This document shows positions 16,752 through 41,120 of a DNA stretch of 44,076 nucleotides, piece by piece. The DNA comes from Oscillospiraceae bacterium (GTDB lineage Bacteria > Bacillota > Clostridia > Oscillospirales > Oscillospiraceae), in contig JAFSAP010000042.1 of assembly GCA_017440925.1 (NCBI GenBank), positions 1 through 44,076 on the forward strand, written 5' to 3'. The notes under the pieces are model-generated. The model made no database searches. It was not told where the DNA came from and worked only from the letters and a program-made list of their open reading frames with translations. Numbering within the stretch: the stretch's first letter is position 1; each line of letters opens with the position of its first letter. A program made the position numbers and the translations under genes.

Positions 16752-16783
16752 ATAAAAAACCGCTGTTTCCGAAGAAACAGCGG
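16752..16783 (-). terminator. Terminator after lrgB
   Basis: Minus-strand stem CCGCTGTTTC/GAAACAGCGG (16760-16783) with a 4-nt loop, followed by TTTTTT ATT. It closes the epimerase-rpiR-lrgAB transcription unit. Confidence 0.93.
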
Positions 16784-16801
16784 CAAAAAGTTTTGGAGAA
16801 G

Positions 16802-17491
16802 TCAGATCAGGGAAACGAATACCGGAAGGATCACGGCGGTGAGCAGGCTGGCCACCACCAGAGACAGGCTGCTGACAGCGCCTGCCAGGGGGCTGATCTC
16901 GTTGGCGCGGGTAGTGCCGATGACATGTCCGGAGGTGCCGAGGGCAACACCCTGGGCAATGGGATCCGTCAGACGGAACAGCTTGCAGAAGGCCGGGCCC
17001 ATCACATTGGCGAAGATTCCGGTGAACACAATGGCGGCGGTGGTGACGCCGGGCATGCCGCCGGACATCTCGCTGAGCACCACGCCGATGGCAGTGGTGA
17101 TGGATTTGGGCAGCAGGGATACCGTAAGTACCGATTCAAAGCCGGCAAGCATGCCGAACAGCAGGATCATCACCAGACAGGAAACGGCGCCGGCGGTGAC
17201 ACCGGCGGCAATGGCCCACAAATTCTTCTTCAGCAGCTGGAACTGCTCATACATGGGCACTGCCAGACAGATGGTGGCGGGGGTCAGCAGCCAGGAAAGG
17301 CTGGACATACCAGCTTGGTAGGTTTTTACGGACACCCCGGAAACCTGCAGGAACAGCAGCACCAGGATCACGGCGATGAGGATGGGATTCAGCAGGGGGG
17401 ATCTCAGCTTTTGCTGCAGCTTCTGGCCCAGAAGGAAGAAAACCAGGGTCAGCGCCACAGGCAGGATCCCGATGGAAAGCAGATCAGCCAC
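16802..17491 (-). CDS. lrgB: LrgB/YohK-family membrane protein
   Basis: Integral membrane protein of 229 residues with the LrgB family layout: many hydrophobic helices, the conserved segment LLPKSITTAIG (about residue 127), SGGMPGVTTAAI, and GTSGHVIGT near the C-terminus. The LrgAB/CidAB group was first described as holin/antiholin-like. Relatives in B. subtilis (PftAB) and streptococci act as pyruvate facilitators. The start is GTG at 17491 with GGGAGG 8 bp upstream, and the gene overlaps lrgA by 8 bp. Its place in one operon with a sialic-acid-type epimerase and an RpiR regulator fits the pyruvate role, because NanA releases pyruvate; that link is inference. Confidence 0.93.
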   Translation of the reverse strand: MADLLSIGILPVALTLVFFLLGQKLQQKLRSPLLNPILIAVILVLLFLQVSGVSVKTYQAGMSSLSWLLTPATICLAVPMYEQFQLLKKNLWAIAAGVTAGAVSCLVMILLFGMLAGFESVLTVSLLPKSITTAIGVVLSEMSGGMPGVTTAAIVFTGIFANVMGPAFCKLFRLTDPIAQGVALGTSGHVIGTTRANEISPLAGAVSSLSLVVASLLTAVILPVFVSLI

Positions 17492-17843
17492 GGTTTTTGC
17501 CTCCCTTCTTCAGAAGCAGCTGGGTCAGACCGCCGCTGATGCCGAAGGTCAGCAGAGTGGAGGCGGCCAGCAGCAGCACGATGGGCAGCAGCCGGGGCTG
17601 GATAAGGCTCCAGTTGTCCACGATGCCCACCGCGGGGGAGACAAACAGCAGTGCCATAATAGAGATCAGAAAGGCAGAAACCTCCTTCACCTGCTGCGGC
17701 TTTACGATGCCCAGGCAGAGGGCGGCAAACAGCAGGGCCAGTCCCCAGACAGACGCCGGGATGGGCAGGGGGATGATCCGCTGAAGGGCTTCACCAGCCA
17801 GGGTGAAGCCCAGTATGATACAGAATTGAGACAGATATTTCAT
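17484..17843 (-). CDS. lrgA: LrgA/CidA-family membrane protein
   Basis: Small membrane protein of 119 residues with four predicted helices and the family features IPLPIPASVWGL (about residue 24) and FVSPAVGIVDNW (about residue 67). It forms a complex with LrgB. The start overlaps the stop of the rpiR-type gene by four bases (ATGA) and the end overlaps lrgB, so the three are translated as a coupled block. Possible functions are pyruvate transport (as in PftAB) or control of murein hydrolase activity; gene context favours the first. Confidence 0.93.
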   Translation of the reverse strand: MKYLSQFCIILGFTLAGEALQRIIPLPIPASVWGLALLFAALCLGIVKPQQVKEVSAFLISIMALLFVSPAVGIVDNWSLIQPRLLPIVLLLAASTLLTFGISGGLTQLLLKKGGKNRG

Positions 17844-18694
17844 ATGTGTTTCTCAGACAGGGCAGCGCCGATGCGCTGCAGGTTTTCTTCACTCTTTTCC
17901 CGGTTGCGCCGCAGGTATTCCTGGAACAGAATGTCCATCAGCACCAGCTGTGCGACCTTGGCGGGAATGGAACCGAACTGGAAGGGCGTCTCATTGGAGC
18001 CGCAGTACAGCACGATGTCTGCCAGCTGGGCAGCGGGAGATTTGGGATACCGGGTCACAAGAACAGTGGGGATCTTATGGACCTTTGCCAGTTCCAGCAC
18101 AGCAATACCGTTGTGGGTGGCGCCGGAGTAGGAAAACAGCACGATGGCATCGGTGGGATCAGCGGTGGCAGCGGCAGATACCTGGGTGTGGGAATCGCTG
18201 ACAGCCACAAACTTGTTGGTGATGGTGCTGAACAGGTGGGCCAGCTCCTGGGCCATGATCATACTGCCGCCGGAGCCCATGCAGAATACCCGGTTGGATT
18301 TTTCAAACAGGGCGACGGCTGCTTCGAGATCCTTCGGCTGCAGCAGATCCAGTGTCTGCTGAATTGCCTCCTGGGAAAGCTGTCCGGCGGAAATGCTGCG
18401 TCCCTCCAGAGAATCGGAGGCCACCTGGCGGTCCCGGATCCGACCGGTGGAGGTGGCGGTATGCTTGGCGATCTCCATTTTGAAGGCGTTGAAGCCCTTC
18501 AGCGCCAGGGAACGGCAGAAACGGGAAACCGTGGCCTCTGCCACGCCACATTCCTCCGCCAGCTGGGTGATGGACATAAACTGCACCTGGCTGTACTGGG
18601 ACAGTACATAGTCTGCCACCTTCCGTTCTGCAGCAGAGAGCTGATAGTAGGAAGAATGGAGCCGCTCCAGAATATTGATATTACGTTCGTTCAT
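17840..18694 (-). CDS. MurR/RpiR-family transcriptional regulator
   Basis: Sugar-phosphate-responsive regulator of 284 residues. The N-terminal 80 residues form the RpiR helix-turn-helix (LSAAERKVADYVL, MSITQLAEECGVAEATVSRFCRSL). The C-terminal part is a SIS domain (VFCMGSGGSMIMAQELAHLF, FSYSGATHNGI, VLVTRYPKSPAAQLAD) that binds phosphorylated sugars. NanR and MurR regulators of sialic acid and MurNAc use are of this family, so control of the surrounding cluster by an amino-sugar phosphate is likely. The ATG at 18694 is preferred over a TTG two codons upstream, because AAAGGGG sits 7 bp from the ATG but only 1 bp from the TTG. It lies 59 bp after the epimerase gene. Confidence 0.92.
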   Translation of the reverse strand: MNERNINILERLHSSYYQLSAAERKVADYVLSQYSQVQFMSITQLAEECGVAEATVSRFCRSLALKGFNAFKMEIAKHTATSTGRIRDRQVASDSLEGRSISAGQLSQEAIQQTLDLLQPKDLEAAVALFEKSNRVFCMGSGGSMIMAQELAHLFSTITNKFVAVSDSHTQVSAAATADPTDAIVLFSYSGATHNGIAVLELAKVHKIPTVLVTRYPKSPAAQLADIVLYCGSNETPFQFGSIPAKVAQLVLMDILFQEYLRRNREKSEENLQRIGAALSEKHI

Positions 18695-18753
18695 CCGCAA
18701 ACCCCTTTCTTATCAGGATGGGGGATGGAAGCAGTCCATCCCTCGGATGCGTA

Positions 18754-19944
18754 TTATTCGCCCAGAACCTCGGTCATCATCTGATCCACCAGGATCAGGC
18801 AGCGGGGCACATGGAAGGGACCCTTGAAGGTGGAACCCTTGCAGGCAGGCTGGGTGGGCTTGCCATCCCGGCGCAGGTAACCGTACCACTCACCGTACTC
18901 GTCGGCAAAGCACTTCTTGCAGTAATCCAGGATCTGATAGAAGATGTCCAGATACTTCTCGTCCTTGGTATCGCGGTAGATCATCATGGAAGCGATCAGT
19001 GCCTCGTTGTGGGGCCACCACAGCTTCATGTCATGCTCGTAAGCTTCGGGAGGATTGCCCAGGCAGTCCATGAAGTACAGAATGCCGCCGAATTCATCGT
19101 CCCAGCCCTTGGAGAAGGCCATGTCAAAGACATGGATGGCCTTCTTGTGCAGCTCGGCATCGCCCACATCGTTGGCGTAGTCCATCAGGAACCAGGAGCA
19201 CTCGATGTCATGGCCGGGGTTCACCATACGGCCTTCGGTGACATGGAGCCGGGGAGTGCCGTCCAGAGCAACGCTCTCCAGGGTAACGCCCAGGTCTTCC
19301 TTGACGTGGTAGTTGAAGATGTCTTCCACACATTCCTTGGCGCGGGCGTCGTAGACATCCTTCATTTCGGGATCGACCCGCTTCATAACGCCGGTGACGT
19401 TCAGAATGATCATGGGAATACCCAGGGCACGGCCGGTGCGGGTGGACTTGGGGCCCATACCGGTGGGATCTGCCATGCCATGGTTCAGATTCCAGTACAT
19501 GTCATAGGCGCGGCGGGCCCGGAGCAGGTGCTCCCGCTCACCGGTAACGCCGTAGTATTCGGCGTTGGCGATGCAGTAGAAGGCTTCAGAGTAGCAGTAA
19601 CGGCGCTGGCGCAGGGGGGTGCCGTCTGCTTCCACGGTAAAGTACAGGCGGCCGTCGGCATCATGGTTGACGCAGTGCTCTTCCAGGAAGTCGATGCAGC
19701 TCTTGGAGAACTTCAGCCAGTCCTCCCGGATACCGTAAATTTTGCACAGGTAAGCGTAGGTCCAGCCGCAGCGGCCCTGCATCCACACGCTCTTGTCGGT
19801 GGAGTAGACCTGGCCTGCGCGGTCCAGACAGGTGGTGACACCGCCGTTGACATGATCCCAGCCGTTTTTCAGCCAGAAATCAGCGACGTTCGTCAGCTGG
19901 TTGCGGATCCACTGGCGCTCAGCCAAAAACTTTTTACGATCCAT
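18754..19944 (-). CDS. AGE-family N-acylglucosamine 2-epimerase
   Basis: Cytoplasmic epimerase of 396 residues, a typical length for the AGE (renin-binding-protein) family, which interconverts ManNAc and GlcNAc. The alpha/alpha-barrel motifs are visible: WMQGRCGWTYA (about residue 54), RRYCYSEAFYCIA, the catalytic-His segment NPGHDIECSWFL (His 245), and LWWPHNEAL (His 312). Both conserved His residues are present. It would process ManNAc from NanA to GlcNAc without prior phosphorylation. GGAGGA precedes the ATG, and a strong promoter lies 32 bp upstream. Some AGE members act on other sugars (cellobiose, mannose), so substrate assignment depends on the nearby nan genes. Confidence 0.9.
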   Translation of the reverse strand: MDRKKFLAERQWIRNQLTNVADFWLKNGWDHVNGGVTTCLDRAGQVYSTDKSVWMQGRCGWTYAYLCKIYGIREDWLKFSKSCIDFLEEHCVNHDADGRLYFTVEADGTPLRQRRYCYSEAFYCIANAEYYGVTGEREHLLRARRAYDMYWNLNHGMADPTGMGPKSTRTGRALGIPMIILNVTGVMKRVDPEMKDVYDARAKECVEDIFNYHVKEDLGVTLESVALDGTPRLHVTEGRMVNPGHDIECSWFLMDYANDVGDAELHKKAIHVFDMAFSKGWDDEFGGILYFMDCLGNPPEAYEHDMKLWWPHNEALIASMMIYRDTKDEKYLDIFYQILDYCKKCFADEYGEWYGYLRRDGKPTQPACKGSTFKGPFHVPRCLILVDQMMTEVLGE

Positions 19945-19976: not shown

Positions 19977-20005
19977 ATTATATATGGATTGCGCCGGAGT
20001 TGCAA
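19977..20005 (-). promoter_or_regulatory. Promoter of the epimerase-rpiR-lrgAB unit
   Basis: Minus-strand -35 TTGCAA (20000-20005) and -10 TATAAT (19977-19982), spacer 17 bp, 32 bp upstream of the epimerase ATG. An AT-rich segment lies between the -10 and the ribosome binding site. Confidence 0.85.
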
Positions 20006-20095: not shown

Positions 20096-20716
20096 ATGTT
20101 CCGCAATATTCTTCGTCCTGACAGTCCGCTGATGATCACCATGACCCAGATCACAGACTGCATTTTCCTCAGCCTGTTCTGGCTGGTGGGCTGTTTCCCT
20201 GTCCTTACCGCAGGCACGGCCACGGCAGCCATGTATGATGCGGTGTATCATGCTTTCCGGAAAGGGGAGAAGCACAGCTGGCAGCGGTTTTTCCATGCAT
20301 TCAAACAGAACCTGAAGCCGGGCCTGGTGCCCACGGTGGTTTTTCTGGCAGCAGCTGCGCTGCTTGTCCGGCTCGGTATCCTTGCCTGGAACCAGGCGGT
20401 CTACGGCAATCTCTCCTGGGGCATATTTGCAGCCATTGCCTTTTTCCTGCTGGTGCTGCTGGGGATCGGCAGCATTGTGTTCCCCCTGCTGTCCCGGTTT
20501 GAAACGGGAACGGTGCAGCTGTTTTCCAACACTGTCCGGCTGGGTCTTGCCAATCTGCCGCTGACCTTGGGTCTTGCGCTGGTGAATGCTGTGGTGATTT
20601 TTCTGTGCATCCGCTACATTGTGACCCTGTTTTTCCTGCCGGCGCTGGGTGCGCTGCTGTCCACCCTGTTCATCGAGCCCATGCTGAAGCCTTATATGCC
20701 CAAAGAAGACGAGTGA
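20096..20716 (+). CDS. YesL-family (DUF624) membrane protein
   Basis: Membrane protein of 206 residues with about four to five hydrophobic segments (near 18-40, 80-100, 107-130, 150-175, 178-195). The N-terminal segment LFWLVGCFPVLTAGTATAAMY and the following FxHAFKQN region are typical of DUF624/YesL proteins. These are very often coded beside carbohydrate ABC transporters; their exact role is unknown, possibly transporter assembly or function. GGGAGG precedes the ATG. It sits between the epimerase and the sugar transporter genes, consistent with membership of the sialic-acid cluster. Confidence 0.87.
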   Translation: MFRNILRPDSPLMITMTQITDCIFLSLFWLVGCFPVLTAGTATAAMYDAVYHAFRKGEKHSWQRFFHAFKQNLKPGLVPTVVFLAAAALLVRLGILAWNQAVYGNLSWGIFAAIAFFLLVLLGIGSIVFPLLSRFETGTVQLFSNTVRLGLANLPLTLGLALVNAVVIFLCIRYIVTLFFLPALGALLSTLFIEPMLKPYMPKEDE

Positions 20717-20718
20717 CA

Positions 20719-20940
20719 ACCTCCAAAGGCTTTCCCCGGGGTGGTGCTCCGCGCGGCGAATCAGAATCCACATGATTGTCTGTGGCAATCATTCCATAAT
20801 GTGTTGTCTGTCACCACAATCGGCTTTTCGGAACCGAGTGTGGTGACTGATGAGGAATGCCGATGTTTCAGACCTGCACATTGGCTTTCCCTCATCCGTC
20901 AGCCCTTTGGGCTGCCACCTTCCCCCAGGGGAAGGCTTTT
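20719..20940. repeat. Dispersed palindromic element after the yesL-like gene
   Basis: Non-coding unit bounded by imperfect inverted ends: CAAAGGCTTTCCCCGGGG on the left, CCCCAGGGGAAGGCTTT on the right. A long internal hairpin is built on GTCACCACA/TGTGGTGAC (around 20810-20845). The right half (CTCATCCGTCAGCCC... CCACCTTCCCC) resembles a repeat widely seen in gut Firmicutes. Its right end doubles as a terminator. Confidence 0.65.
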
Positions 20941-20945
20941 TTATT
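20918..20945 (+). terminator. Terminator after the yesL-like gene
   Basis: Stem CCTTCCCC/GGGGAAGG (20918-20935) with a very tight loop, followed by TTTTTTATTTT. It is supplied by the right end of the dispersed element and overlaps the stop of the convergent SGNH hydrolase gene. Confidence 0.75.
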
Positions 20946-21600
20946 TTACCAGACTGGGGATAATGGCTGCCAGATTCTCTGCCAGAGTGGCATGTCCCCG
21001 GGCGGTTAAGTGCATGTAGTCCACGGTGTTGAACTCGCAGCCCATAGCCTCGGCATCCAGGAAATGTGCGCCGGTGAGGTCACACTGTTCCTTATAGTAC
21101 TTGGCCAGCTCCCGGGACTTCTCCACACAGCCGGTGCCCATGGTGGCGGCAACGTCGCTTTTCAGCATGCCTTCACCGATGTGAGGCGGTGCGATGACCA
21201 GAATGTTGGGCCTTTTGCCGCCCCAGCACTCCGTGGCCTGGGCCTTTTTCACCAGCCGGGCCATACCGATGCCGATGCAGGCGGCGCTGGCATAGAAACG
21301 GTCCTTGGTATCGTTGGTGCCCAGCATGATCACCAGCAGATCCACGGTTTCATGGCTTTTCAGACAGGGATAGATGTAATCCAGTGCGCTCAGACCTTCG
21401 TGAATGGGATCGTCGAAGCAGGTGGTGCGGCCGGAAAGGCCCTCCTCGATCACCAGATATTCTTCGCCCAGGTGCTTCTGCAGCAGACGGGTCCAGCGCT
21501 GCTCTTCGGTGAAGCGGATGCCGCCGTCTAAGCAGTCGGCAGGGTCGGCGCAGTAGCCATGGGTGTTGGAATCGCCCAGGCAGACGATATGCTTTTTCAT
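20941..21600 (-). CDS. SGNH/GDSL-type esterase
   Basis: Serine esterase of 219 residues with no signal peptide, so probably cytoplasmic. All SGNH blocks are visible: block I CLGDSNTHG (Ser 10), block II glycine in EGLSGRTT, block III LGTNDTKD, and block V DYMHLTARGH with the Asp-x-x-His pair. The form is closest to arylesterase/acetylxylan-esterase-type lipases. Beside the Neu5Ac uptake genes, which it faces divergently, removal of O-acetyl groups from imported sialic acids is a plausible job; this is inference. GGGAGG precedes the ATG at 21600; longer in-frame versions upstream add only unconserved hydrophobic residues. Confidence 0.88.
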   Translation of the reverse strand: MKKHIVCLGDSNTHGYCADPADCLDGGIRFTEEQRWTRLLQKHLGEEYLVIEEGLSGRTTCFDDPIHEGLSALDYIYPCLKSHETVDLLVIMLGTNDTKDRFYASAACIGIGMARLVKKAQATECWGGKRPNILVIAPPHIGEGMLKSDVAATMGTGCVEKSRELAKYYKEQCDLTGAHFLDAEAMGCEFNTVDYMHLTARGHATLAENLAAIIPSLVK

Positions 21601-21707
21601 CAGAAAAACCTCCCGAAAACACAGAATTGTATAGAATAAGTATATCATAGAAAACGGTAAATGAAAGTTTTTTTCCTTCGTCATAATACAAAAAATGGAA
21701 ACCCCTT

Positions 21708-21728
21708 ATTTGTAAGCAATTTACAAAT
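21708..21728. promoter_or_regulatory. Inverted repeat upstream of the sugar transporter promoter
   Basis: Perfect palindrome ATTTGTAA / TTACAAAT with a 5-bp centre, 34 bp upstream of the -35 of the binding-protein gene, inside the 331-bp divergent gap (21601-21931). It is a candidate operator, perhaps for the RpiR-type regulator. Nothing else in this gap looks like a gene. Confidence 0.5.
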
Positions 21729-21762
21729 CGTTTTCGCCCCGGAAATTATTTCCCTGCAACGG

Positions 21763-21791
21763 TTGACTTTACCCCCGCTTTGAACTAATAT
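21763..21791 (+). promoter_or_regulatory. Promoter of the sugar-binding-protein gene
   Basis: -35 TTGACT (21763-21768) and -10 TAATAT (21786-21791), spacer 17 bp. An overlapping TATAAT starts at 21789 but would need a 20-bp spacer. The leader to the ATG is about 135 nt. Confidence 0.75.
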
Positions 21792-21931
21792 AATCATGGT
21801 AATTGTCGCAGAATCCGGAAAATTTTTTTCATACAAAATGACAAAGTTTGACCGTTTTTTGCGAACCGAATATGGCTCTGCCGGTGGCGACACCGTTGAG
21901 CATATACATTAAATTATTAGGAGGAAAACAA

Positions 21932-23269
21932 ATGAAGAAGATCATTGCACTTCTGCTGGCCCTGGCCATGGTGCTGTCTCTGGCAGCTTGCTCTGTCGAG
22001 AAGGTCGAAGAGCCCGCTCCCACCGAGGCTCCCAAGGCTGAGGCTCCCGCTGCTACCGAAGCTGCCGGCCCCGCACCCGTTGAAATCTCCCTGTGGACCT
22101 TCCCCGTAGGTCAGTGGGGCGAAGAAGCCACCGTTAATGGCTGGATCGAAGCTTTCACTGCCAAGTATCCCCACATCACTGTCAACGTTGAGTACCTGGA
22201 CTATCAGGCTGGCGACGACAAGCTGAACACCGCTATCGAAGGCGGCCAGGCTCCCAACCTGATTTTTGAGGGTCCCGAGCGTCTGATCGCTACCTACGCC
22301 GCCAAGGGCCTGCTGCTGGACATCTCCAACCAGCTGAACACCGATGCCGGCAAGCAGCTGTACCCCTCCATCGTGAACACCTGCTCCATCGATGGCAAGC
22401 TGTACGCATACCCCATCTCCCAGACCGCTCACTGCATGGCCATCAACTATGATCTGTTCGAGGCTGCAGGCGCTCTGGAGCACATCAACGAAGAAGCTCA
22501 CACCTGGAAGTCCGTTGACGATTTCTTCGCTGCTGTTCAGAAGGTTTATGACTATCAGAATGGCGAGAAGAACGTTCTGGCTATCTACTGCGGCAACCAG
22601 GGCGGTGACCAGGGTACCCGTCACATGATCTCCAATGTTGCCGGCGGCACCCAGTGGTCCAACCCCGAGCACACCAAGTTCACCGTTGCCAACGAGGCCA
22701 ATGCTGAGGCTCTGGCTCGCCTGAAGGCTCAGGACGGCGTTATCTTCGATCCCTCCATCGTTGGCGGCGACGAGTACCTGCTGTTCCTGCAGGGTCAGCT
22801 GGGCATGGCTACCTGCTGGAATGCTACTCTGCACGCAAACAGCCAGGATATGATCGATGCCAACGAGTGGACCCTGTTCCCCATGGCATTCCCCTCTGAC
22901 TCCACTCCCGACCTGGCCGGCGGCTTCTACTGCCTGGGCATCTTCGACAACAAGGACGATGCTAAGGACGAGGCTGCTCAGCTGTTCATCGAGTTCATCG
23001 GTTCCGATGAGATCTACAAGGAAGCTGTTCTGGCCGCTGGTCAGTGGGCTACCCGTGACATCGGCAACATCTACGAGGGCAACGAGCTGATGACCACCTA
23101 CGGTATGTTCGCTCCCATGTTCGGTGACTACTACCAGATCACCACCAACTGGGCTACCTTCCGTACTGAGATGTGGAACGCCCTGCAGCGCATCGGCACC
23201 GGCGATGGCACTCCCGAGTCCATCCTGGCTGAGCTGCAGACTGTTGAAGCTAACTCCAACATTGGCTAA
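21932..23269 (+). CDS. Sugar ABC transporter substrate-binding lipoprotein (probable sialic acid)
   Basis: Lipid-anchored binding protein of 445 residues. The signal peptide ends in LAAC (Cys 20), followed by a Pro/Ala/Glu linker and a family-1 sugar-binding fold (ISLWTFPVGQWGEEATVNGW, APNLIFEGPERL, YPISQTAHCMAINYDLF, GQLGMATCW). It is the first gene of the transporter set ending in nanA, so Neu5Ac or a related sialic acid is the likely ligand. AGGAGG precedes the ATG at 21932; the frame extends upstream without a usable signal sequence. Codon use is strongly biased, like gap and ppdK, which suggests high expression. A terminator-like hairpin follows. Confidence 0.92.
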   Translation: MKKIIALLLALAMVLSLAACSVEKVEEPAPTEAPKAEAPAATEAAGPAPVEISLWTFPVGQWGEEATVNGWIEAFTAKYPHITVNVEYLDYQAGDDKLNTAIEGGQAPNLIFEGPERLIATYAAKGLLLDISNQLNTDAGKQLYPSIVNTCSIDGKLYAYPISQTAHCMAINYDLFEAAGALEHINEEAHTWKSVDDFFAAVQKVYDYQNGEKNVLAIYCGNQGGDQGTRHMISNVAGGTQWSNPEHTKFTVANEANAEALARLKAQDGVIFDPSIVGGDEYLLFLQGQLGMATCWNATLHANSQDMIDANEWTLFPMAFPSDSTPDLAGGFYCLGIFDNKDDAKDEAAQLFIEFIGSDEIYKEAVLAAGQWATRDIGNIYEGNELMTTYGMFAPMFGDYYQITTNWATFRTEMWNALQRIGTGDGTPESILAELQTVEANSNIG

Positions 23270-23302
23270 TATAGTTTAATTCCGCATAACTGCACATAAT
23301 TT

Positions 23303-23335
23303 AAGCCCCTTCCCTTTCGAGGGGAGGGGCTTTTG
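23303..23335 (+). terminator. Hairpin between the binding-protein and permease genes
   Basis: Stem of about 12-14 bp starting AAGCCCC and ending GGGGCTT (a few G-U pairs, 2-nt loop), then TTTTGTG. Partial termination here would give more binding protein than permease, a common arrangement in sugar ABC operons. Confidence 0.75.
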
Positions 23336-23423
23336 TGTAAACCTGAAAGAAGCATAAGAAAAGTGAATAGGTATTGTGTCCGCCCTGCGGACAGGCGCCT
23401 AAAATGTGTGTTGTGAAAAAATG

Positions 23424-23558
23424 TGTCATCCCGAGGCCCCAACGGGGCCGTGGGGATCTCCCGGCAGGCATTTCTGATTTGTTTCAATGTTTCGTGGAGA
23501 AACGTTGTACCGGGAGATTGCCACGTCGCCGCCTTTGGGGCGGCTCCTCGCAATGACA
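23424..23558. repeat. Dispersed TGTCAT...ATGACA element inside the transporter operon
   Basis: About 135 bp with inverted ends (TGTCATCCCGAGG left, CTCCTCGCAATGACA right) and an inner pair GGGGATCTCCCGG / CCGGGAGATTGCC. The outer and inner arms match those of the 271-bp elements at 34.5 and 40.4 kb, with a different centre. It occupies most of the 389-bp gap between the binding-protein gene and the first permease; no gene is seen there. Confidence 0.75.
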
Positions 23559-23658
23559 CCAGGTCTTTGGACATAGTTCTGGGCATCCCGGCGTCCAAAC
23601 TGAGGGGACGCAAGATTTATTCACTTTTCTTTTTTGAGAGTACGAAAGGAGGATATCC

Positions 23659-24567
23659 TTGGCAAACAAAAATATTGTTCTGAACATGAAGAGCCGCAAG
23701 CTGATGATGCGGGAAACGGTTACTTCCTATCTGTTCCTGACTCCCTTCCTGCTGTTCTTCGTGGGATTTGTTATTTATCCCATGTTCATGTGTATCCGTA
23801 CCAGTTTCTTTGAATCCACACTGGGTGAGAAGGATGTTTTCATCGGTCTTGAAAACTACCGCACCCTGTACAATGATCCTGTTTTCTGGAAAGCACTGAA
23901 AAACACAATGATCATTGTGTTCGTTTCCGTGCCTGTCACCTGCGCCTTCTCCCTGTGGGTGGCCTCCGCCATCGCCAAGATGCCTGTGATCGCCACTTCC
24001 GCTTTCCGCTGCATCTTCTACCTGCCTGTGGTCACCGGCTCCGTTGCCGTTACCGTGGTGTGGAAGTGGATGTACAACAACTACTACGGCATCTTCAATT
24101 TCCTGGGTAAGGAAATGGGCCTGATCGAAAAGAATATCAACTGGCTGGGCGATGAAAAGTATGCCCTGTGGTGTATCATTCTGATCCTGCTGACCACCTC
24201 CGTGGGCCAGCCCATCGTCCTCTACGTTTCCGCTCTGGACAATGTCGACAAGTCTCTGGTAGAGGCTGCCGAGGTTGACGGTGCTACCCCCATGCAGGCC
24301 TTCTGGAAGATCAAGTGGCCCCAGATGATGCCCACCACTCTGTACATCCTGGTCATCACCACCATCAACTCCTTCCAGTGCTTCGCGCTGATCCAGCTGC
24401 TGACTGCCGGTGGTCCCAACAACTCCACCATGACCATCATGTACTATATCTACTACAACGCCTTCAAGCTGTATAAGTACGGCTACGGCAACGCAATGGG
24501 TGTTATTCTGGCCATCATCATCGCCATTCTGTCTGCCGTCCAGTTCAAGCTGGGCGAGGAAAAGTAA
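23659..24567 (+). CDS. Sugar ABC transporter permease, MalF type
   Basis: Inner-membrane permease of 302 residues with six hydrophobic segments; the first follows a short N-terminal tail (SYLFLTPFLLFFVGFVIYP). The cytoplasmic EAA loop that contacts the ATPase is clear: EAAEVDGATPMQAFWKIKWP (about residues 199-218). The start is TTG at 23659 with AAAGGAGG 7 bp upstream. It pairs with the next gene, 12 bp downstream, and with the upstream lipoprotein. No ATPase gene is in the cluster, so a shared MsmK/UgpC-type ATPase coded elsewhere is expected. Confidence 0.93.
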   Translation: MANKNIVLNMKSRKLMMRETVTSYLFLTPFLLFFVGFVIYPMFMCIRTSFFESTLGEKDVFIGLENYRTLYNDPVFWKALKNTMIIVFVSVPVTCAFSLWVASAIAKMPVIATSAFRCIFYLPVVTGSVAVTVVWKWMYNNYYGIFNFLGKEMGLIEKNINWLGDEKYALWCIILILLTTSVGQPIVLYVSALDNVDKSLVEAAEVDGATPMQAFWKIKWPQMMPTTLYILVITTINSFQCFALIQLLTAGGPNNSTMTIMYYIYYNAFKLYKYGYGNAMGVILAIIIAILSAVQFKLGEEK

Positions 24568-24579
24568 GGAGGTGCGGAT

Positions 24580-25539
24580 ATGAAGAATCCTGAGCGTTTG
24601 GATAATAAATTAAACGGTGAGAAGATCTATTCCATTTTCTCTTATGTCGTGGTTATCATATTTGCATTCCTGTTCACCTTCCCCCTGTACTGGATCATTA
24701 CCGGTACCTTCAAGACCAAGGTTGAGATTCTGGCAACAGAACCCGTCTGGTGGCCCAGCGAGTGGGTGCTGACCAACATCGAAAACCTGATGAGCAAGCG
24801 GTCTGCCCCCCTGTTCGATTTCACCATTCCCGCCCTGAAGATCTCCGCCTTTGGCTACGTCTTTAAGCTGGGCAGCGCCATCACCATCACCGGTCCCACG
24901 GTGCCTGCCGCCATCCGCTGGCTGGTGAACACCGTGTTCATGTCCGTTACTTCCATGCTGCTGACCTGCCTGACCGCCGCCATGGCCGGTTATGTTCTGG
25001 CCAAGAAGCGGTTCTGGGGCAAGACCCTGATCTTCACTCTGGTGGTCTGCGCCATGGCTCTGCCCAAGCAGGTCATTCTGATCCCTCTGGTTCGGGAAAT
25101 GTCTGCCCTGAACCTGTATGACACCATCTGGGCCGTTATCTTCCCCATCGTGGGCTGGCCCTTCGGTGTGTTCCTGCTGAAACAGTTTGCTGAGGGCATC
25201 CCCACCGAAATGGTGGAAGCCTGCCGCATCGACGGCGCTTCTGAGTGGCGGACCTTTACCGATGTCATGTTCCCCATGATCAAGCCCGGTGTTGGCGCCT
25301 GTGCCATCTTCACCTTCATCAACTCCTGGAATGATTACTTCATGCAGCTGATCATGCTGACCTCCACCAAGAACCTGACCATTTCTCTGGGCATCGCCAC
25401 CATGCAGGCAGAAAACGCAACTGACTTTGGTCTGCTGATGGCCGGTTCCGCTCTGGCTTCCGTGCCCATCATCATCGTGTTCCTGATCTTCCAGAAGTAC
25501 TTTACCAAGGGCATCACCATGGGTGCCGTTAAGGGTTAA
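24580..25539 (+). CDS. Sugar ABC transporter permease, MalG type
   Basis: Second permease subunit, 319 residues with six hydrophobic segments and the EAA-type loop EACRIDGASEWRTFTDVMFP (about residues 213-232), which ends in the usual G-rich C-terminus (KYFTKGITMGAVKG). An insert of about 40 residues lies between the first segment and the second, including KISAFGYVFKLGSAITITGP. AAGGAGGTG precedes the ATG. It forms the membrane channel with the preceding permease for import of the sugar bound by the lipoprotein. The next gene is nanA, 28 bp downstream. Confidence 0.93.
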   Translation: MKNPERLDNKLNGEKIYSIFSYVVVIIFAFLFTFPLYWIITGTFKTKVEILATEPVWWPSEWVLTNIENLMSKRSAPLFDFTIPALKISAFGYVFKLGSAITITGPTVPAAIRWLVNTVFMSVTSMLLTCLTAAMAGYVLAKKRFWGKTLIFTLVVCAMALPKQVILIPLVREMSALNLYDTIWAVIFPIVGWPFGVFLLKQFAEGIPTEMVEACRIDGASEWRTFTDVMFPMIKPGVGACAIFTFINSWNDYFMQLIMLTSTKNLTISLGIATMQAENATDFGLLMAGSALASVPIIIVFLIFQKYFTKGITMGAVKG

Positions 25540-25567
25540 TATCCACTTCAATAAGGAGAATTGAATT

Positions 25568-26494
25568 ATGAAGAACATCAAGAAGTATGAAGGCATTATC
25601 CCCGCCCTGTACGCCTGCTATGACGACAATGGTGCCGTTTCCATCGAGCGTACCAAGGCTCTGACCCAGTGGTTCATCGACCAGGGTGTCAACGGCCTGT
25701 ACGTCGGCGGTTCCTCCGGAGAGTGCATCTACCAGACCAAGGACGAGCGTAAGGCCGTTCTGGAAGCTGTCATGGAAGTGGCCCGCGGCAAGATCACCAT
25801 CATCGCCCACATCGCCTGCAACAATACCGCAGAATCCTGCGAACTGGCTGCCCATGCCGAGAGCCTGGGCGTTGACGCCATCGCCTCCATTCCTCCCATC
25901 TACTTCAAGCTGCCCCCCTATGCCATTGCCAAGTACTGGAATGACATGAGCGCCGCTGCTCCCAACACCGAGTTCATCATCTACAACATTCCCCAGCTGG
26001 CAGGCGTGGCTCTGACCACCAGCCTTCTGAATGAAATGATGAAGAACCCCATGGTTGTCGGTGTCAAGAATTCCTCTCCCGCTACCCAGGACATCCAGAT
26101 GTGGCGTGACGAGGCCATCAAGCAGAACCGGGAATTCGTTGTTTTCAACGGTCCCGACGAGCAGCTGATCTCCGGTCTGGTGATGGGCGCTACCGGCGGC
26201 ATCGGCGGCACCTACGGTGCTATGCCCAAGCTGTACCTGAAGCTGTACGAGCTGGTGAAGACCGGCGACCTGGTCACCGCTCTGGACATCCAGAACGAGT
26301 GCTGCCGCATCATCTACAAGCTGTGCTCTGCCCACGGCAACATGTACGCTGTTATCAAGGAGTGCCTGCGCAAGCTGGGCGGCCCCGACTGTGGCTCCGT
26401 CCGCGCACCTCTGGCTGAGCTGATCGATGCTGACGCTGTCGTCGTTGACGAGGCTGTGGCTATGATCCAGGCTGCCCTGGCAAAGTATTGCTAA
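25568..26494 (+). CDS. nanA: N-acetylneuraminate lyase
   Basis: Class I aldolase that splits N-acetylneuraminate into N-acetylmannosamine and pyruvate in the cytoplasm. The 308-residue product belongs to the DapA/NanA family. It has the carboxylate-binding motif GGSSGE (residues 47-52), Tyr 139 in YNIP, and the Schiff-base Lys 167 in VGVKNSS. GECIYQT after the GxSGE motif and YNIPQLAGVALT are of NanA rather than DapA type. AAGGAGAA precedes the ATG. It is the last gene before a strong terminator, in a likely operon with the transporter genes. The dihydrodipicolinate-synthase alternative is less likely given the motifs and context. Confidence 0.93.
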   Translation: MKNIKKYEGIIPALYACYDDNGAVSIERTKALTQWFIDQGVNGLYVGGSSGECIYQTKDERKAVLEAVMEVARGKITIIAHIACNNTAESCELAAHAESLGVDAIASIPPIYFKLPPYAIAKYWNDMSAAAPNTEFIIYNIPQLAGVALTTSLLNEMMKNPMVVGVKNSSPATQDIQMWRDEAIKQNREFVVFNGPDEQLISGLVMGATGGIGGTYGAMPKLYLKLYELVKTGDLVTALDIQNECCRIIYKLCSAHGNMYAVIKECLRKLGGPDCGSVRAPLAELIDADAVVVDEAVAMIQAALAKYC

Positions 26495-26504
26495 ACCACT
26501 TTTC

Positions 26505-26538
26505 GCCGCCGGGGATCCTCCCCGGCGGCTGTTTTTTA
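26505..26538 (+). terminator. Terminator after nanA
   Basis: Perfect 10-bp stem GCCGCCGGGG/CCCCGGCGGC (26505-26529), 5-nt loop, followed by TGTTTTTT. Confidence 0.95.
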
Positions 26539-26549
26539 AGTTTTCACCC

Positions 26550-26620
26550 GTAGGGGTGGGTTTCCAACCTGCCCGGGAAAGTGTGTTGCCCATGCGGGAG
26601 GGGTAAAAACCCTTCCCTAC
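26550..26620. repeat. Paired-hairpin element, copy 1
   Basis: A 71-bp unit with inverted ends GTAGGGGTGGGT / AAACCCTTCCCTAC. Each arm is itself a small hairpin (GGTGGGTTTCCAACCTGCC; GGGAGGGGTAAAAACCCTTCC). It is the shortest of three such elements in the window and lies between nanA and the YdcF-like gene. Confidence 0.7.
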
Positions 26621-26650: not shown

Positions 26651-27301
26651 ATGGACTTTTTAGAACCCTTACAGATCATCTGGGATTACCTGGGGATGCA
26701 TCAGACCCCCACAAAAGCGGACTGTATCGTCGGCTTCGGTAATTTCAATACCAATATCGCCCGCCGGGCGGCAGAACTGTATCACCAGGGCTATGCCCCG
26801 AAGATCCTGTTCACCGGAGGTCTTGGCCGGAATACCACCCGCCTCTTTACGGAGCCGGAGGCTGTCCGGTTTGCAAAGGTAGCCATGGAATGCGGCGTTC
26901 CGGAATGTGACATTATCCTGGAGGATAGGTCCACCAACACCAAGGAAAACATTGACTTTATGCGGGAAATTTTCGAAAAGCAGGGAATTCCCCATGACCA
27001 TGTGCTGGGTGTCCACCAGCCCTTCATGGAGCGGCGGATCTGCGCAGCCCTGGGTGTCTACTGGCCGGAACTGAACTTTACCGTCACCTCTCCCCAGGTC
27101 ACAATCCCGGAATATCTGGCCTCTGCCAAAGAGCAGGGCATGACGGAAAATGCTGCGATTTCTGTGATCGTCGGTGACTTCCAGCGGATGGACCTGTATG
27201 CAAAGCTGGGCTATCAGGTTCCCCAGGAGATTCCCGAAGAGGCATGGCATGCTTTCCATGCTCTGGTGGCCATGGGCTACGACAAACAGCTTGCAAAGTA
27301 A
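26651..27301 (+). CDS. YdcF-family (DUF218) protein
   Basis: Protein of 216 residues with the DUF218/ElyC-SanA-YdcF Rossmann-like fold: DCIVGFGNFNTNIARRAAELY, then ILFTGGLGRNT (about residue 53) and the family signature EDRSTNTKENIDFMRE (about residue 92). There is no signal peptide or membrane helix, so it is probably cytoplasmic, like E. coli YdcF. Its reaction is unknown; YdcF binds S-adenosylmethionine. A GGAG-type ribosome binding site lies before the ATG. It is placed between nanA and the ROK gene, but its own terminator context and repeat leave open whether it is functionally linked to sialic acid use. Confidence 0.85.
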   Translation: MDFLEPLQIIWDYLGMHQTPTKADCIVGFGNFNTNIARRAAELYHQGYAPKILFTGGLGRNTTRLFTEPEAVRFAKVAMECGVPECDIILEDRSTNTKENIDFMREIFEKQGIPHDHVLGVHQPFMERRICAALGVYWPELNFTVTSPQVTIPEYLASAKEQGMTENAAISVIVGDFQRMDLYAKLGYQVPQEIPEEAWHAFHALVAMGYDKQLAK

Positions 27302-29837: not shown

Positions 29838-29860
29838 AATGGTAGTCGCAAAACAAATAA

Positions 29861-29953
29861 GTCTTCGGGGAGCCGGATGCATCCGGCTGAGAGTGGGATA
29901 TGTTGCCCTGACCCGTGAACCTGATACGGTTAGTACCGTCGGAGGGAAAGATG
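29861..29953 (+). promoter_or_regulatory. TPP riboswitch (THI element)
   Basis: The conserved THI elements occur in order: GGGGAGCC, a closed P3 arm (GGATGCATCC), GGCTGAGAG, the second helix with GACCC, GAACCTGATACGGTTAG, and the closing GGAGGGAA. The outer P1 helix pairs GTCTT (29861-29865) with AAGAT (29948-29952). Known function: thiamine pyrophosphate binding turns the gene off. It controls the ECF thiamine transporter gene starting at 30032. Confidence 0.96.
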
Positions 29954-29976
29954 CATATATGGGATACCTTTTGTGT

Positions 29977-33270: not shown

Positions 33271-33324
33271 GTGAGTATCCTTTGCGTATGGTTTCCATGA
33301 AACGGAAGATCCTGTGTGGCGCAG

Positions 33325-33421
33325 CGGGTGCGGTGACCCCACCGCGAGCAAGTGCTCTTCGTCTGCCATACAACTCCCCATTCTGGCAGCACTTTACGCG
33401 GGGTCTCCTACTCTGTACCCG
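33325..33421 (-). promoter_or_regulatory. THF (tetrahydrofolate) riboswitch
   Basis: On the minus strand the leader carries AGTAGGAGACCCCGCG, TAAAGTGC, GAATGGGGAGTTG, ACGAAGAGCAC and CGCGGTGGGGTCACCGCACCC in the order of the THF riboswitch consensus. Pairing supports it: P1 CGGGT/ACCCG (ends 33421 and 33325) and P2 GACCCC/GGGGTC. It starts almost exactly at the predicted transcription start. Known function: binding of tetrahydrofolate lowers folate-gene expression. Confidence 0.93.
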
Positions 33422-40371: not shown

Positions 40372-40642
40372 CTGCCGGGTATCGACAACCACTGTCATTG
40401 CGAGGAGCGAAGCGACGTGGTGACCGAAGGAAATACCTTTCGGTGCAATCTCCTGGAATGTAGCAACGAATCGGAAAACCTCCGTTAAATGGTTTGTTTT
40501 GGTGCGATCCATCTGTTATTCTGCTTTTTTGATCATTTCATTGTACCAGGAGATTGCCACGCCAGTCTGAGGACTGGCTCGCAATGACATAGTAATCGGG
40601 AATGGTCTGCAAAGCTATTGCTGCTAAGGTAAACAATCATTT
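40372..40642. repeat. 271-bp dispersed element, copy B
   Basis: Gap-free partner of the element at 34487-34757. The differences cluster in the centre and in the last 30 bp, while the stem-forming arms are almost unchanged. It occupies most of the 333-bp gap between the HAD gene and the YhcH gene and ends 43 bp before the latter's ATG. No gene is seen in the gap. Confidence 0.9.
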
Positions 40643-40685
40643 ATCATTGATAATGGAAATTTTAAAACGGAAAGGAAGTTTTGTT

Positions 40686-41120
40686 ATGATCATCTGCCCC
40701 TGGAAAGACATCAAGAAGTATGCATCCCTGCTGCCCGGCATTGAGGAAGCGTATGACGCCGTCAATGCGCTGGACAATTACGAGGCAAAGACCTACCCCC
40801 TGTCTGACGGTAACCGTTTCTTCGTAGCCGTTGGCACCACCAAGGCTCCTGATGTGGCAGAAGCACACCGGAAGTACCTGGATATCCAGTACATCGTCAA
40901 GGGTAAGGAAGTCATGGGCTGGGCTGACCTGGCTGACTGCAAGCTGGAAGGCGAGTTCAATGAAGAGAAGGACATCGGTAAGTATTCCGGTGATTTCTCC
41001 TTCGTTACCATCAACGAGGGCATCTGCTATGTGGCTTTCCCCGAGGATGCCCATATGCCCGGCCGTCATCTGGATGTGCCCAATGATTTCGTGAAGATCG
41101 TCGTTAAGCTGAAGGTATGA
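40686..41120 (+). CDS. YhcH/YjgK/YiaL-family protein (NanQ-like)
   Basis: Cupin-fold protein of 144 residues. Family marks are YEAKTYPLSDG-like beta strands, AHRKYLDIQYIVKGKE (about residue 63), and the metal-ligand segment FPEDAHMPG (about residue 119). E. coli YhcH (NanQ) is a sialic-acid anomerase and others sit in sugar-acid clusters, so a role in the sialic-acid pathway 13 kb away is possible. AAAGGAAG precedes the ATG. The stop overlaps the next start by four bases (ATGA). Codon use is of the highly expressed type. Confidence 0.9.
   Translation: MIICPWKDIKKYASLLPGIEEAYDAVNALDNYEAKTYPLSDGNRFFVAVGTTKAPDVAEAHRKYLDIQYIVKGKEVMGWADLADCKLEGEFNEEKDIGKYSGDFSFVTINEGICYVAFPEDAHMPGRHLDVPNDFVKIVVKLKV

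Follow-up and report, generated by a model that had tools for sequence, protein, structure and literature searches.

Recurrent placement of lrgAB behind an RpiR-type regulator in the sialic-acid gene cluster of an Oscillospiraceae genus

The pyruvate facilitator PftAB (YsbAB) of Bacillus subtilis is a pair of LrgA/LrgB-family proteins, like the LrgAB pair considered here, which is encoded in a stretch of 44,076 nucleotides of an Oscillospiraceae draft genome (assembly GCA_017440925.1, contig JAFSAP010000042.1), hereafter referred to as the window. According to the excerpts of the literature on which we draw throughout, PftAB answers to LytST and CcpA, whereas the pair of the window is located behind an RpiR regulator gene in a sialic-acid cluster. 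While PftAB has LytST, the draft genome of the window has a single LytS-domain match (PF07694; 31.2 bits against a cut-off of 24.6), in a short frame of 202 aa on another contig; the draft comprises 1.92 Mb and is 67.9% complete, so that absences from it carry little weight. The LytS domain exceeded the cut-off in 11 of 24 genomes of the same genus, strongly in G268 and G225 only (98 and 89 bits), and no LytS match was seen beside lrgAB in these 24 genomes, in which no search was aimed at LytT. LrgAB proteins have long been called holins, and pyruvate carriage has since been shown in a few bacteria. A recurrent, overlapping lrgAB behind a sialic-acid regulator would tie this family to a defined catabolic route.

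The Bacteroidetes NanE-II route, as outlined in the excerpts of PMC10017367, involves a lyase, an N-acylglucosamine 2-epimerase (AGE), RokA, NagA, and NagB. The cluster of the window resembles it in the presence of the lyase and the AGE epimerase, with no NanE found, but differs from it in the presence of an ATP-binding cassette (ABC) transporter, an RpiR regulator, and LrgAB, and in belonging to a genus of Clostridia; our results suggest that Clostridia, too, use the AGE (NanE-II) route. With the RpiR-type NanR regulators of Streptococcus pneumoniae and Vibrio vulnificus, the RpiR of the window shares the HTH_6 and SIS domains, the location of its gene in a sialic-acid cluster, and phosphate-binding residues, but Arg148 of S. 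pneumoniae NanR (SpNanR) is replaced by Thr. In the Ruminococcus gnavus nan cluster, ABC transporter genes also accompany nanA, but that operon contains nanE, nanK, and nanH according to the excerpts of PMC3808388, unlike the cluster of the window with its AGE and LrgAB genes. The term lrga is absent from the main text of that paper, and the titles and abstract openings of the literature yielded no description of lrgAB within sialic-acid genes. The results presented below show that the coupling of the LrgAB carrier to sialic-acid genes is real and recurrent at the genus level. We give roughly even chances to the reading of the locus as a sialic-acid operon under NanR control that has gained a facilitated carrier for carboxylates, with pyruvate as its likeliest cargo.

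In the window, a single compact operon on the minus strand holds the genes of AGE epimerase, RpiR, LrgA, and LrgB, opposite the plus-strand transporter/nanA operon. Its components are as follows:

16759..16784, minus strand: terminator-like hairpin 3' of lrgB (11-pair stem and T run, consensus match only)
16802..17491, minus strand: lrgB, LrgB/CidB-family membrane carrier subunit, 229 aa (PF04172, 2.6e-69)
17484..17843, minus strand: lrgA, small partner subunit, 119 aa (PF03788, 4.9e-28)
17840..18700, minus strand: rpiR, NanR-like RpiR regulator, 286 aa (HTH_6, 1e-22; SIS, 5.1e-22)
18754..19944, minus strand: AGE-family N-acylglucosamine 2-epimerase (NanE-II-type step), 396 aa (GlcNAc_2-epim, PF07221, 1.1e-47)
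19977..20005, minus strand: promoter-like site of the operon, TTGCAA-17-TATAAT (10/12, sigma-70-like, consensus match only)

The AGE gene is separated from rpiR by 53 bp, rpiR overlaps lrgA by 4 bp (ATGA), and lrgA overlaps lrgB by 8 bp. The initial annotation of this DNA had described the four genes as lying in line on one strand with these two overlaps, between one promoter and one terminator; coordinates and Pfam matches bear out the arrangement, one candidate site of each kind was found, and the proposed range (16802-19944) is exact. In many relatives, a TTG[AC]AA motif with a TA-rich -10 region also precedes AGE or rpiR. The LrgA and LrgB domains encoded side by side are those of the LrgAB/CidAB family. 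A search of positions 12000-44076 against Rfam at gathering thresholds gave no match inside the cluster.

Among the matches listed, to which all linkage counts in the genus genomes refer, rpiR is located, by coordinates, directly 5' of lrgAB in 10 of 136 genus genomes (G000, G231, G268, G249, G315, G223, G321, G317, G220, and G300), and AGE stands in front of the three genes in eight of these ten. This recurrence rules out a gene order unique to one strain. In G231 (locus L131) and G268 (L133), AGE lies off the nan cluster, beside a second NanA/DapA-like gene. The initial annotation had asked whether the epimerase-rpiR-lrgAB order returns in related genomes with nanA; it does, and it is joined by a second arrangement, nanA-esterase-lrgA-lrgB. 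The latter is found in a twelfth genome, G225, where permease genes, nanA, an esterase-like gene, lrgA, and lrgB follow each other on one strand, and the esterase-like frame overlaps lrgA by 4 bp. In the eleventh, G279, a gene of an IS605-type transposase lies between AGE and lrgA, at the place of rpiR. The 4-bp overlap of rpiR and lrgA is kept in eight of the ten genomes, the window counted, the exceptions being G220 (a 5-bp gap) and G317 (about 0.5 kb). Since the overlap is so kept, and the ratios of nonsynonymous to synonymous substitution rates of lrgA, lrgB, and rpiR are 0.15-0.24 (pairwise, three species), the rpiR-lrgAB layout appears to be more than a matter of chance. AGE-rpiR pairs without lrgAB occur in many other clusters. 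Genome G287 has two AGE-rpiR copies (L216 and L217), and in L217 the rpiR match is in two pieces.

In a tree of LrgB (71 rows from 70 genomes, G275 being present twice and G209 left out), 11 of the 12 nan-linked copies fall into one 20-row clade (support 100/96), while the LrgB of G225 sits in a different clade. The nanA gene is present in 18 of the 20 genomes of the former clade vs. 17 of the 51 other genomes with LrgB (Fisher tests). NanA matches (E 1e-30) occur in 46 of the 136 genus genomes; the list of 44 used in these tests omits three of them (G215, G227, and G236, 36-48% identity) and includes G287, which was added for its partial NanA, while the LrgB list includes a 48-residue fragment of G209. 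Seven of the nine unlinked copies in the 20-row clade form one subclade, in which three neighbourhoods were examined closely. In L150 and L151, lrgB is followed by a gene without a Pfam match and then by a class II fumarase gene (assigned by Pfam for L150), and in L153 by the same gene without a Pfam match. The gene 3' of lrgB in the nan-linked G317 (L139) resembles it. The tree needs five label changes, three of which are forced by starred branches. Two separate gains of the lrgAB-nan linkage are favoured, as they are the simplest account on the tree and the two arrangements differ; a single gain followed by losses may also account for the pattern.

Beyond the genus, an order-level sample of 394 genomes contained 49 with a NanA match (E 1e-40). 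Among the 48 of these besides the window, 22 matches are at least 63% identical, the others being more distant lyase-family matches, and LrgB is also present in 22; the two genes are on the same contig in G118 (about 113 kb apart) and G128 (about 193 kb apart). A search of a named collection with the RpiR alignment gave 38 loci; in nine of them, lrgA and lrgB adjoin rpiR, and a tenth retains a remnant of lrgA. These ten are all at 59% RpiR identity or more, and three of the eight most distant loci are named Avoscillospira or Flavonifractor. Of the 31 loci in the family-level set, L001 and L002 belong to the window; the remaining 29, one of which (L003) comes from its genus, showed no rpiR match in the 80 to about 1,150 bases of upstream DNA searched.

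The genes opposite to the four-gene operon, and the sites in front of them, are listed below:

20096..20716, plus strand: DUF624 membrane protein (PF04854, 1.6e-11), kept in the cluster of relatives
20941..21684, minus strand: GDSL esterase, possibly a sialate O-acetylesterase (PF13472, 7.1e-19; role suggested by cluster conservation)
21742..21752, no strand assigned: GAAA-N3-TTTC palindrome that may serve RpiR as an operator at the transporter-nanA operon, starting 21 bp before the promoter
21763-21791: transporter promoter-like site, TTGACT-17-TAATAT
21932..23269, plus strand: ABC solute-binding protein (PF13416, 2.7e-24; scan from 21848, ATG at 21932)
23659..24567, plus strand: ABC permease 1 (PF00528, 1.1e-13)
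24580..25539, plus strand: ABC permease 2 (PF00528, 1.4e-22)
25568..26494, plus strand: nanA, N-acetylneuraminate lyase (best PDB relatives 6rab and 6rb7, 411 and 408 bits)
26651..27301, plus strand: DUF218 protein (PF02698, 7.4e-16), encoded 3' of nanA in many relatives

The GDSL esterase gene thus stands, on the opposite strand, between the DUF624 and solute-binding genes. A phage search with positions 20096-26600 as the query gave no match. The initial annotation had placed nanA in this region, and full-length homology (residues 1-307 in the case of 6rab) to solved sialate lyases indicates that its product is probably a true enzyme of this kind. The AGE protein aligns over nearly its full length with PDB entries 8bry and 1fp3 and retains the NPGH and FHVPR segments, the histidines of which are presumably catalytic; its score against NCBIfam NF052547 (305 bits) is under the cut-off of 600. 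AGE matches (E 1e-10) occur in 55 of the 136 genus genomes, six of which are without NanA, while four NanA-positive genomes are without AGE (G225, G232, G260, and G331; of these four, the NanE search covered G225). Among the sampled genomes, NanE is nearly absent from those with AGE: a match was found in one of 24, G225, itself without an AGE match. Because the other 23 have none, AGE seems to take the place of NanE by converting N-acetylmannosamine (ManNAc) to N-acetylglucosamine (GlcNAc), and the NanE-II route fits these findings, since NagA is over the cut-off in 22 of the 24, including the window's genome. The draft genome of the window gave no match to the sialidase domain BNR_2, which was over the cut-off in 8 of the 24.

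The best PDB relative of RpiR, which in relatives also adjoins AGE and nan genes, is 4ivn (107 bits), which we take to be V. vulnificus NanR. It also matches 8tx9 (60 bits), regarded by us as SpNanR because the residues at the positions named in the excerpts of PMC12713135 agree. RpiR residues S146, S190, S192, and T195 align with the phosphate-binding S135, S179, S181, and T184 of SpNanR, and these four columns are invariant in a 21-sequence alignment. A point against the likeness to NanR is Thr159 of RpiR (T, N, or I across the 21 rows), which occupies the place of Arg148 that selects the 6-phosphate of ManNAc (ManNAc-6P) in SpNanR; 4ivn has Arg there. In the consulted part of PMC12713135, Arg148 is described as binding the N-acetyl group of ManNAc-6P, and the authors give this as the reason why GlcNAc 6-phosphate (GlcNAc-6P) is not bound. 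Of the earlier proposal that RpiR senses an amino-sugar phosphate, the kept sugar-phosphate loop and the conserved membership in nan clusters speak in favour, and the absence of the ManNAc-6P-selecting Arg refines it. GlcNAc-6P is a more likely effector than ManNAc-6P, and it would be the natural signal, as AGE stands in for NanE.

All 23 stretches whose solute-binding match exceeded 200 bits and 40% identity have the GAAA-N3-5-TTTC palindrome upstream of the solute-binding gene (mean 2.0 and max 6 in 200 dinucleotide shuffles; L138, L155, and L222 excluded). A promoter-like pattern follows it in 13 of them and begins 21-23 bp past the palindrome start in 12; in the remaining one, G303, the match is shifted. 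Within the close group, 15 of 26 AGE promoters also have the palindrome (shuffle mean 1.2, max 4), often over the -35 region, and it was found at 4 of 8 more distant ones (shuffle mean 0.4). Its presence upstream of GDSL (16 of 21) and DUF624 (14 of 25) genes is presumably due to intergenic DNA common with the transporter promoter. The ten matches in the whole window include further copies at 21663, inside the GDSL frame as listed, and at 21818. No exact palindrome with half-sites of 6-8 bases was common to more than 2 of 42 stretches. The GAAA-N3-5-TTTC palindrome is a putative site of RpiR binding at the nan operons. A second inverted repeat, TTTGTAA-GCA-ATTTACAAA, is located at 21709-21727, before the transporter operon of the window, and similar repeats occur in at least four of eight relatives' stretches (G231, G268, G315, and G223).

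The predicted fold of LrgB appears nearest to that of the elevator-type citrate carrier CitS, which would be compatible with a facilitator of the PftAB type. By sequence, the PDB contains no relative of LrgB, and LrgA had two chance-level matches there (E 0.07-0.08). The bacterial LrgAB pairs studied so far carry pyruvate, as far as excerpts of the reports on Staphylococcus aureus (PMC12632267, PMC8805020), B. subtilis PftAB, and Streptococcus mutans indicate, and by analogy pyruvate is our best guess for the likeliest cargo here; the coupling to sialic-acid genes is better supported than this cargo. The initial annotation had proposed that the cluster couples sialic-acid breakdown to pyruvate export or re-uptake, an idea that is supported in part. 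In the proposed route, the plus-strand arm would import sialic acid, NanA would cleave it to ManNAc and pyruvate, AGE would convert ManNAc to GlcNAc with no kinase step beforehand, and NagA, encoded elsewhere in the genome, would carry on after the GlcNAc step. The NanR-like RpiR would respond to the amino-sugar phosphate, and LrgAB, as a PftAB-like facilitated carrier, would let the pyruvate made by NanA exit down its gradient and re-enter later; both the co-regulation and this direction are what we infer. Most likely, lrgAB is located behind the regulator so that acid from sialic-acid breakdown can leave the cell while the sugar is being consumed. More tentatively, and with a good deal of doubt, the sialic-acid regulon may have captured LrgAB on two occasions in the genus, in one case after the regulator gene and in the other after nanA and the esterase gene, as a by-product valve for pyruvate and perhaps glycolate or acetate. 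The NanA reaction is reversible, and the release of acid would pull it forward and feed neighbours. The recurrent, overlapping placement behind the regulator would itself offer a clean test of what LrgAB carries and hint at cross-feeding by acids derived from gut mucus sugars.

Several observations weigh against the reading of a NanR-controlled operon with an acquired carrier. Among the matches listed, 34 of the 44 nanA-positive genus genomes are without rpiR-lrgAB together, and nine species of the 20-row LrgB clade have lrgAB apart from the cluster. LrgB was within 20 kb of NanA in none of the 48 order-sample genomes, although contig ends may hide some cases, and no lrgAB linkage was found in the eight named-collection loci at 50% RpiR identity or less. 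NanA scores below the NCBIfam NanA cut-offs (NF003164, 217 of 281 bits; second model, 208 of 382). The invariant residues of LrgB are the same in linked and unlinked copies, with no cargo-specific change seen. The palindrome is absent from all 55 lrgA starts away from rpiR, that of G225 included (shuffle mean 1.2). It is present in four and absent in six of the ten linked loci with upstream sequence, the window counted, and the AGE promoter of the window has none; control of lrgAB through the palindrome is therefore likely in some species. The missing palindrome would also suit a view of LrgAB as a generic organic-acid carrier and passenger, located behind rpiR by chance and without a special tie to sialic acid. 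LrgB matches (E 1e-8) in 71 of the 136 genus genomes (G209 by its fragment only), 36 of these 71 without NanA, point the same way, as does the loss or relocation of the linkage in several species, among them G299, which keeps only a remnant of lrgA 3' of rpiR. Such a chance placement is nevertheless unlikely, given that the 4-bp overlap persists although the linked LrgB proteins are merely 58-77% identical to that of the window, that a second arrangement beside nanA exists in G225, and that nanA is enriched in the linked clade.

It is similarly improbable that LrgAB exports another product of sialic-acid breakdown, be it glycolate derived from N-glycolylneuraminic acid (Neu5Gc) or the acetate that NagA and esterases release. 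In the consulted excerpts, the LrgB family is labelled a glycolate/glycerate transporter (PMC8396727), PLGG1 carries glycolate and glycerate in plant plastids, and glycolate is a proposed product of Neu5Gc catabolism in Escherichia coli (PMC3658417). The esterase-like gene directly 5' of lrgA in G225 would suit this reading, but its Pfam match (21.6 bits) is under the cut-off of 24.8. The gut of goat, water buffalo, and roe deer is the source of three linked loci, which would also suit this reading, but the hosts sampled are very few, and L237 and L244, both from goat, have AGE-rpiR without lrgAB. The pyruvate carried by the bacterial pairs in the excerpts consulted argues against either acid. 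A holin/antiholin-type autolysis modulator under a sugar regulator, suggested by the naming of NCBIfam family models (all LrgAB matches under their cut-offs) and by the pores formed by S. aureus LrgA in vesicles, is very unlikely in view of the pyruvate uptake reported in the same excerpted study (PMC8805020), the resemblance of the LrgB model to an elevator carboxylate carrier, and the assignment of LrgB to the CPA/AT transporter clan by modelling (PMC8396727, in part).

Elsewhere in the window, a YhcH/DUF386 gene is located at 40602-41120, about 14 kb from nanA, and weak YhcH-like matches adjoin nanA in G287, G289, G291, and G314; the YhcH family is a reported anomerase partner of NanA according to the excerpts of PMC8141875. 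A thiamine pyrophosphate riboswitch was found at 29856-29964, before a ThiT-like gene, and a tetrahydrofolate riboswitch at 33320-33417, at the start of a gene of an energy-coupling factor S-component.

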